The position numbers and the translations under genes were made by a program. Below, in pieces: positions 22,179-24,065 of a stretch of 64,000 bases of DNA (its first letter is position 1; every line of letters starts with the position of its first letter). A model generated the notes under the pieces. The model was not told the origin of the DNA. It made no database searches and saw nothing but the letters and a program-made list of their open reading frames with translations. The stretch lies in contig NC_010003.1 of the NCBI RefSeq assembly GCF_000018605.1, forward strand, positions 1,216,501-1,280,500. The letters run 5' to 3'. This DNA is from Petrotoga mobilis SJ95. GTDB taxonomy: Bacteria; Thermotogota; Thermotogae; Petrotogales; Petrotogaceae.

Positions 22179-22340
22179 TTGAAACCTAAAAGTGTTATTA
22201 TAACTATAATTTTTACTACTATCACAATTTTTGCTTTTTCGGAAAAACTTAATATCATTTTAGGCGAATATTACCCAGATGTATACGATGAACTCAGAAG
22301 TGAAAGACCATATAAAAAATCTTTTTCTCACGAAGAAAGC
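22179..22340 (+). pseudogene. HD-GYP protein remnant, 5' part (interrupted by IscB element)
   Basis: TTG 22179 follows AAAGGGAG. The first 30 codons give a signal peptide plus LNIILGEYYP, which looks like the start of a periplasmic SBP_bac_3-type sensor. Without a transition the frame continues DVYDELRSERPYKKSFSHEES, the typical C-terminal part of an HD-GYP cyclic-di-GMP phosphodiesterase domain. So the gene had probably lost its middle before or during insertion of the IscB element. The frame resumes at 23958. Confidence 0.65.
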
Positions 22341-22618
22341 GTCAACTACCCACCGTCTAAAGACGGGGGCTTGTGATGAACAAGCCTTAGTTGGCTACCC
22401 TCAGCCGTATGAAGAAACGGGCTTCCATCTCTAAAGGAAGATCATCGGGCTACGTTATATAGGTCATAACACCTTCGGATGTTTCTCCTAGTCTGTCGCT
22501 CTGTTGTTTAGCTTTAAACAATCCTGAGGGGTAGGGATAGTGAGCTAAACGTAAAAAGCCTATATAACATTGGGGAAGGAGAATAACTCCGTTAAGGAAA
22601 AAGAAACGGGCTTCCGCC
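22325..22618 (+). ncRNA. Candidate IscB omegaRNA with 5' guide
   Basis: The ~295 bp before iscB are rich in consistent helices. CAACTA (22343-22348) pairs with TAGTTG (22388-22393), enclosing two hairpins: CCGTC-TAAA-GACGG (22353-22366) and GGCTTGT-GATGA-ACAAGCC (22368-22386). CTTCC/GGAAG pairs at 22422-22440. GTTATATAGG (22454-22463) pairs over long range with CCTATATAAC (22559-22568), enclosing GTTTAGCT/AGCTAAAC. In known IscB systems the guide is the 5' end of this RNA, reading from the left flank; here that would be about 22325-22340 (TTCTCACGAAGAAAGC), in the host gene. Confidence 0.7.
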
Positions 22619-23957
22619 TATTAAGGAGGTACACTTTATGTTAGTGTACGTTTTAAACAAACATGGGGAACCTCTTATGCCTTGTAAATCTTCAAAGGCA
22701 AGAAAGCTACTTAAAGATGGTAAAGCCAAGGTTGTTAGAAAAGAACCCTTTACTATTCAACTGCTCTATGGTAGTAGCGGTTATAAACAACCTATTACTT
22801 TGGGAGTAGATGCAGGAAGTAAAACTGTAGGATTGTCTGCTACTACTAAAAAGAAAGAACTTTTTGCATCAGAAGTTGAAATAAGGGACGATATAACTAA
22901 ACTTATATCTCAAAAACGACAGTATCGTAGAGATAGACGTTTAAGAAAAACAAGGTACAGGAAACCACGCTTTTTAAATCGTGTTCACAGTAAGAACAAA
23001 GGATGGATTGCACCATCGGTAGAACATAAAATAAAATCGCACATTAAACTGATTGATCTAGTTTATCGTTTGCTTCCTATTACAAAAATTGTAGTAGAAG
23101 TTGCAAGTTTCGATATACAAAAGATTAAGAATCCTAATATTGAAGGCAAACAATACCAACAAGGTGAACAATTAGATTTTTGGAATGTAAGGGAATATGT
23201 TCTATGGAGAGATAACTATACCTGCCAACACTGCAAAGGCAAAAGTAAAGATAAAAGACTCAATGTTCACCACATCGAAAGTAGACAAATAGGTGGAAAC
23301 GCACCGAGTAATTTAATTACATTGTGTGAAACATGCCATAGAGATTATCATAATGGAAAGATTAAATTGAATTTTAAAAGAGGACAAAAGTTTAAAGATG
23401 CTACATTTATGGGTATTATGAGATGGACATTATACAATAGATTGAAAGATTTGTATTCTAACGTTCATCTAACTTACGGATATATCACTAAAAATACAAG
23501 AATACAGAACAACCTACCTAAAACACATAGAATAGACGCTTTATGTATTAGTGGTCATCCTCAAGCAAAACAATTAGATTACTATTATCACATTAAAGAA
23601 GTTAGACGACACAATAGACAAATACACAAAGCTAACATTCTAAAGGGAGGAACAAGGAAGCTTAACCAAGCACCTTATCTAGTACATGGTTTTAGATTGT
23701 TTGATAAAGTAAGATACAACGGTATCGAATGTTTCATATTTGGGAGACGTTCAACTGGATATTTTGATATAAGGAAACTTGATGGTACAGTAATTCATAG
23801 AAGTGCAAAAAGCAAAGATTTAATCCTGGTAAGCAAAGCTAAAACTTTACTATGGGAAAGGAGAGAAAATTCTGCATTCCTCTCACCGCTTCCTTATCTG
23901 CCGTAAGGCTGTGTGGCGGAAGCCCGTTTTCTAGTGAGTCTCCTGCAGATATTTTTC
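22341..23957 (+). mobile_element. IscB (IS200/IS605-type) element inserted in HD-GYP gene
   Basis: Boundaries are inferred by rejoining the host frame: ...SHEES at 22340 with MKILLEGDNRTSPEQFDPEV at 23958. The element carries the omegaRNA region and iscB and no TnpA transposase, so it would need one in trans. A 15-bp inverted repeat flanks the iscB gene: AAACGGGCTTCCGCC (22604-22618) and its complement (23915-23929); part of it also occurs at 22415-22426. Confidence 0.7.
22638..23906 (+). CDS. iscB: IscB RNA-guided nuclease
   Basis: Ancestor-type relative of Cas9 that cuts DNA guided by omegaRNA. The 422-residue protein shows all IscB parts in order: N-terminal PLMP domain (NKHGEPLMPCKSSKARKLL, residues 7-25), RuvC-I LGVDAGS (D58), Arg-rich bridge helix (residues ~90-115), RuvC-II IVVEVAS (E154), HNH domain with C196/C199, HH at 211-212 and C230/C233, RuvC-III THRIDAL (H297, D300), then a C-terminal target-adjacent-motif-interaction region. 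No residue looks lost, so it should be active. ATG 22638 follows AAGGAGG. Confidence 0.92.
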   Translation: MLVYVLNKHGEPLMPCKSSKARKLLKDGKAKVVRKEPFTIQLLYGSSGYKQPITLGVDAGSKTVGLSATTKKKELFASEVEIRDDITKLISQKRQYRRDRRLRKTRYRKPRFLNRVHSKNKGWIAPSVEHKIKSHIKLIDLVYRLLPITKIVVEVASFDIQKIKNPNIEGKQYQQGEQLDFWNVREYVLWRDNYTCQHCKGKSKDKRLNVHHIESRQIGGNAPSNLITLCETCHRDYHNGKIKLNFKRGQKFKDATFMGIMRWTLYNRLKDLYSNVHLTYGYITKNTRIQNNLPKTHRIDALCISGHPQAKQLDYYYHIKEVRRHNRQIHKANILKGGTRKLNQAPYLVHGFRLFDKVRYNGIECFIFGRRSTGYFDIRKLDGTVIHRSAKSKDLILVSKAKTLLWERRENSAFLSPLPYLP

Positions 23958-24065
23958 ATGAAAATATTATTAGAAGGAGACAACCGAACTTCTCCAGAGC
24001 AATTCGACCCTGAAGTATTAAAAGTGTTTGTCAAGATCGCAGAAAAGTTTAAAAATATGTATTAA
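23958..24065 (+). pseudogene. HD-GYP protein remnant, 3' part
   Basis: Encodes MKILLEGDNRTSPEQFDPEV, then LKVFVKIAEKFKNMY and a stop, the usual end of HD-GYP phosphodiesterase/response-regulator domains. Joined to the 22179-22340 part it restores a normal HD-GYP tail. Confidence 0.65.

Follow-up and report, generated by a model that had tools for sequence, protein, structure and literature searches.

How does a mobile element that has no transposase persist in its host, and what decides where its copies are found? Cas9 is considered to descend from IscB, and most IscB elements are without a transposase. We examined these questions at an IscB element lying inside an HD-GYP gene of Petrotoga mobilis SJ95, in a stretch of 64,000 nucleotides (contig NC_010003.1, positions 1,216,501 to 1,280,500) that we call the window and whose numbering we use. 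Comparison of the window genome (G000) with related genomes, among them three with empty alleles of the site (G001, G002 and G004) and a second species with the same insertion (G005), resolved the locus into these features:

22179..22340, + strand: left HD-GYP remnant (TTG start), in which an in-frame internal deletion has joined N-terminal codons to the C-terminal part; from alignment with G001, G002 and G004
22276..22286, + strand: CAGATGTATAC, short repeat at the scar of the ~1.7-kb deletion, a scar common to G005; from alignment
22325..22340, + strand: predicted omegaRNA guide segment TTCTCACGAAGAAAGC, from the host flank; from HEARO model position 1 at 22341 and known IscB biology
22341..22587, + strand: HEARO/omegaRNA scaffold, 22341 being the left end of the element (GTCAACTACCC); RF02033, 154.3 bits
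22638..23906, + strand: iscB, 422 aa, RuvC and HNH nuclease; from frame, domains and structure matches
23857..23863, + strand: AAAGGAG, Shine-Dalgarno-like word just 5' of the right-end hairpin; from sequence, with a putative role
23862..23957, + strand: right-end hairpin, 23957 being the final element base; predicted fold, boundary from the empty alleles
23958..23961, + strand: flanking ATGA, a candidate for the target-adjacent motif, which in this copy falls on a Met codon inside the HD-GYP gene; ATGR at mapped copies
23958..24065, + strand: right HD-GYP remnant, 35 codons and a stop; from the open reading frame and the empty alleles

The element is an exactly bounded IscB/HEARO element of 1617 bases (22341-23957). 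An initial annotation of the window had recognised an IscB nuclease behind an omegaRNA and suggested a covariance search of the region upstream of iscB. That search returned the Rfam HEARO family directly upstream of iscB, well above the gathering score of 83 and over model positions 1-211 of 211, with model position 1 on base 22341; in 12 related copies the match likewise starts at the left end of the element. A guide taken from the left flank is known IscB biology, and the start of the model on 22341 places the predicted guide where the annotation had put it. The intact iscB frame encodes an IscB-family nuclease of the RuvC/HNH type; its product carries RRXRR and HNH domains and aligned in sequence with IscB proteins of solved structure (E 8e-48). 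Two copies of a short repeat, AACGGGCTTCCGCC, lie in the element, at 22605-22618 (+) and 23915-23928 (-); the repeat is also present in the right-end hairpin loop of some element copies and at a few other places in the window genome, including C1:584326-584339 and 836864-836877.

The host gene is uninterrupted in five related genomes, namely G001, G002 and G004 and the more distant G003 and G011. In the first three an intact gene of 673-680 aa runs across the site, reading ...CACGAAGAAAGC or ...CATGAAGAAAGT on its left and ATGAAAATATT on its right, and the empty-site junction (...GAAGAAAG, then C or T, then ATGAAAATATT) fixes both boundaries to the very bases that the annotation had named when it proposed to look for such an allele. 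Against these alleles the insertion shows no target-site duplication; together with its hairpin ends, this is as in IS200/IS605 elements. The element was inserted in the sense direction, directly 5' of ATGA inside the gene, so that the empty site presents the host-flank guide with the conserved motif just beyond it. The gene was also expected to be rebuilt once the element is removed, and in this the annotation was mistaken. The relatives' intact protein carries SBP_bac_3 and HD domains over about 670-680 aa, and removing the element in silico leaves only an 89-codon remnant, because a second lesion, an in-frame internal deletion relative to G001, G002 and G004, took another ~1.7 kb and with it most of the gene. 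The scar of this deletion, which holds an 11-bp repeat, lies 54 bp left of the element.

Integration of HEARO elements next to ATGA or GTGA was reportedly noted in their first description. At the window site, the annotation had read the flank as the NWRRNA motif of OgeuIscB. The right flanks found within the genus are ATGAAA, ATGAAC and ATGAAT, and the ATGAAC and ATGAAT copies rule NWRRNA out; ATGG is another flank that was seen. In a wider set of copies from genome and viral collections, the flank was ATGR at the right ends mapped by similarity, in a few cases after a one-base shift of the boundary; the sole other flank, GTGA, came from a weak match, apparently internal to an element. As for candidate motifs, the ATGA sites agree better with NTGA, described for IsrB, a relative of IscB (PMC9581776), than with NWRRNA.

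The window had been noted to hold no tnpA, and this absence turned out to reach much further: a PF01797 profile search detected no Y1 transposase in the element, in its own genome (one contig, 2,169,548 bases) or in 12 family relatives (13 genomes), and was positive in genomes of the same order and in five control genomes. At least six sites are occupied in the genus Petrotoga by elements about 90% alike, and past moves must therefore have happened. More generally, HEARO nucleases seldom adjoin TnpA (PMC9755519). A candidate source of the missing activity is found in Duodenibacillus, where IS605-type elements of 1746 bp, with tnpA and a tnpB-like gene (assigned by eye), share their terminal hairpin with IscB elements and run the opposite way relative to the shared end. 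In one genome of Duodenibacillus massiliensis (G021) this hairpin is common to IS605-type elements, for example L287-L294, and to the IscB elements. Its sharing by the two kinds of element there points to mobilisation in trans, with the IS605 element as the likely supplier of transposase. We consider it probable that the Petrotoga element is a non-autonomous IS200/IS605-type element carrying an IscB nuclease and an omegaRNA, which would home by the cutting and repair of empty alleles and reach new sites through a Y1 transposase acting in trans.

Evidence on the homing part of this reading comes from the second species, G005, which shares the insertion as well as the deletion scar with the window genome. 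The two elements differ at 3 of 1617 bases (99.8% identical), against divergences outside the element of ~6.4% over 3.2 kb on the right and ~8.4% over 3.8 kb on the left. G005 is otherwise G001-like around the locus; its switch to G000-like sequence falls between 22241 and 22264, and the return to G001-like sequence has occurred by 23985, so that on the right the island of identity extends at most 28 bp past the element, and on the left about 100 bp. The left side of G005 lies on a separate contig, which we joined across an apparent insertion sequence with an 8-bp duplication, TTTGATTA. The end of contig C24 (L073) and the start of C34 (L072) carry an inverted-repeat-like GGTTCT...AGAACC along with the same 8 bp (TTTGATTA); these repeats at the contig ends fit an insertion sequence in that species' own copy of the HD-GYP gene. 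We left out a site common to G002 and G004, since these genomes looked almost identical at the HD-GYP locus. The predicted guide has one mismatch (by eye) to the G001-like empty allele and one to three mismatches to the empty alleles now seen.

The element thus seems to have reached a second species as a copy at the identical position. The occupation of one site in related lineages, with an island of identity between diverged flanks, fits what is expected of homing without proving it, in one tract at one site, and gives the homing-type behaviour proposed in the annotation a candidate natural instance; that the copy would cut its own empty site is something that we infer. The TnpB of an IS605 element has been described as a gene drive on plasmids (PMC11870625). 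Alternatively, an imported fragment may have been integrated by ordinary homologous recombination, with IscB uninvolved and the element a passive passenger. This is a serious possibility, though we hold it to be somewhat short of even: the tract also takes in the neighbouring deletion scar, the window genome itself looks recombinant (its N-terminal stretch is like G004 and G002, its right flank nearer G001) and there is only one case, yet the island is centred on the element. Outside the genus, the nearest IscB relatives (74-78% identity) come from IMG/VR contigs classified as viral (L184-L188), and phages may thus carry IscB elements between hosts.

We then asked what distinguishes the sites at which copies are found. 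Across phyla, the flanking ATG was start-codon-like, that is, followed by an ORF of at least 60 codons and preceded by a short open frame, in 45 of 79 insertion sites (many of them from one genome, Duodenibacillus) compared with 9% of control sites. For the 43 sites with both flanks, one of whose left ends (L037) is probably misassigned, 27 were start-like, whereas among the 1590 further ATGR positions within these flanks the share was 9% (p about 1e-17), and a Shine-Dalgarno-like word lay upstream in 60% of them compared with 26% of control sites. Another 36 loci gave 18 start-like sites versus 9% of controls (p about 4e-10); their right ends were placed at ATGR after the hairpin motif, a few perhaps wrongly, and because the placement uses ATGR this set tests start-likeness and not the motif. 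The element often sits between the Shine-Dalgarno sequence and the ATG. Within the genus, four of six sites immediately precede a gene's ATG (purH, rimO, comM by eye, and an HD-domain gene) and two at internal Met codons (the window HD-GYP copy and mazG). Curated models start within the first residues of the downstream LolCE, NtrC, SerC, NrdG, PurH and RimO proteins. One Duodenibacillus element precedes a signal peptidase I gene (Peptidase_S26), of which no second copy was found in the genome; since signal peptidase I is essential in most bacteria tested and this is the sole copy found, its expression has probably been kept despite the element in front of it.

The right end of many copies suggests how a gene could remain translated behind such an insertion: it consists of AAAGGAG(G), then the hairpin, then the ATG. 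AAAGGAGG stands in 27/27 IscB right ends that one query retrieved, and in 0/9 of the IS605 elements retrieved with it, of which a single one is from Sutterella. An origin of the word in the IscB protein sequence is disfavoured by its occurrence in all three reading phases of iscB, and an origin in the transposon end by its absence from IS605 elements with that hairpin. In predicted folds of 28 right ends, all chosen for having the word, the linear distance to the ATG is 48-94 nt, too far for a ribosome-binding site, and the hairpin brings the effective spacing to a mode of 8 nt, with 71% at 5-12 nt versus 29% for shuffled spacers. The window copy has a longer hairpin, with a predicted effective spacing of 1 nt. 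Compensatory changes occur at 13 of 14 hairpin pairs among 18 of these right ends, the window copy excluded, but covariation alone is no proof of an RNA role because the hairpin is also the transposon end. A precedent exists in T4 genes 25 and 38, where a hairpin shortens the effective spacing between Shine-Dalgarno sequence and AUG from 27 to 11 and from 22 to 5 nt (PMC3014915). In three other copies, from two archaea and a candidate phylum (L173, L175 and L178), GGAG(G) follows the hairpin a few bases from the ATG, with the element end uncertain; these right ends look as if a ribosome-binding site had been rebuilt without the bridge.

The site bias itself is read from the sequences, and a role in translation is what we infer from it. 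The simplest objection is that landing at start codons merely reflects a transposase preference for ATGA-type targets, with no gain from the right end. This reading would account for the ATGR flank at mapped copies, but other ATGR sites of the same flanks are start-like in just 9% of cases, and IS605 elements that share hairpin and flank motif with the IscB copies are less biased: 2/9 of them lie before long ORFs as opposed to 18/24 IscB elements (p = 0.009). A different distribution with the same hairpin and flank motif suggests, on small numbers, that the bias arises by retention rather than by transposase choice, and we regard such a choice as quite improbable. Under retention, copies would persist mainly between a host Shine-Dalgarno sequence and its ATG, with the right end (AAAGGAGG, hairpin, ATG) forming a split ribosome-binding site that restores translation downstream. 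The excess of start-like sites in both the 43- and the 36-site sets, the word in three reading phases, the concentration of predicted spacings around 8 nt, the contrast with IS605 elements in both word and downstream ORF, the element before the sole signal peptidase I gene and the T4 precedent all speak for this. It is weakened by the window copy, which lies at an internal Met codon with a spacing of 1 nt, by several copies without a clear Shine-Dalgarno word, by the preselection of the folded right ends for that word, and by a hairpin that doubles as a transposon end, so that its covariation is not RNA-specific. On balance we lean slightly towards the split-site explanation, in which the element may allow the gene it precedes to be translated again.

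Translational coupling could achieve the same end, with ribosomes that finish iscB restarting at the nearby ATG and the Shine-Dalgarno word and hairpin of secondary importance. In many copies the iscB stop is indeed ~20-50 nt upstream of the host ATG, but deleted copies without a full iscB, with their right ends kept, still precede nrdG (481 bp left) and serC (1417 bp left), and we consider coupling rather unlikely. Internally deleted IscB elements of 481-1417 bp that precede long ORFs (nrdG, serC) were seen in Duodenibacillus massiliensis at L256, L260, L261, L263 and L264; they retain both ends, including the Shine-Dalgarno word and hairpin.

We propose a model in which the anatomy, the site bias, the one transfer tract and the Shine-Dalgarno word with its predicted covarying hairpin, all taken from sequence comparison, are linked by conditional steps of transcription, cleavage and translation. 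A Y1 transposase acting in trans would insert the element beside an ATGA. Transcription running in from the host flank would yield the guide and the omegaRNA, and also the iscB mRNA; as known IscB biology would have it, IscB would then cut element-free alleles next to ATGA, and repair would copy the element in. Such cutting would keep the element in place and allow passage at the same site between related strains without a transposase, with moves to new sites depending on a Y1 transposase in trans, now absent from the window genome. Copies between a Shine-Dalgarno sequence and its ATG would survive when the hairpin draws the right-end word close to the ATG, an arrangement known from T4 genes 25 and 38. 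The broader picture, to which we give an even chance, is of IscB/HEARO elements as start-codon parasites that mend the damage they cause: they would settle between Shine-Dalgarno sequence and ATG, draw guide and transcription from the host leader, and offer their right-end word and hairpin as a new translation start.

If right ends do restore translation, this would be a direct reason for element survival and would make the right end a mobile ribosome-binding module. Insertion before needed genes would be harmless, helping to explain how transposase-less elements endure and spread by RNA-guided homing, for which the two-species tract offers a natural chromosomal case with IscB. In the literature searched, whose scope left aside the primary HEARO, ISC, OMEGA and IS605-retention papers, we found neither the landing at start codons nor the right-end Shine-Dalgarno hairpin described, and a prior report is possible.

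The element resembles known IscB/HEARO (OMEGA) systems such as OgeuIscB and RF02033 in its nuclease domains, the HEARO RNA directly upstream, the left-flank guide, the motif on the right and the rarity of a transposase. It differs from OgeuIscB in its ATGR flank, and from the IscB/HEARO elements described in that literature in the start-codon bias of its family and in the right-end Shine-Dalgarno hairpin. With IS200/IS605 elements (TnpA with TnpB) it has in common hairpin ends, the lack of target duplication and, in Duodenibacillus, the very same terminal hairpin, but it has neither tnpA nor tnpB and, seen from the shared end, is oriented the other way. Homing endonucleases and the TnpB gene drive (PMC11870625) are alike in the occupation of one site in two species and the element-centred island of identity; here, in contrast, the putative cleavage would be directed by a flank-derived RNA guide and take place on the chromosome. 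Finally, T4 genes 25 and 38 (PMC3014915) likewise have a hairpin between Shine-Dalgarno sequence and AUG that shortens the effective spacing, but there it belongs to the leader of the phage's own gene, whereas here it forms the end of a mobile element that lies before many different genes.
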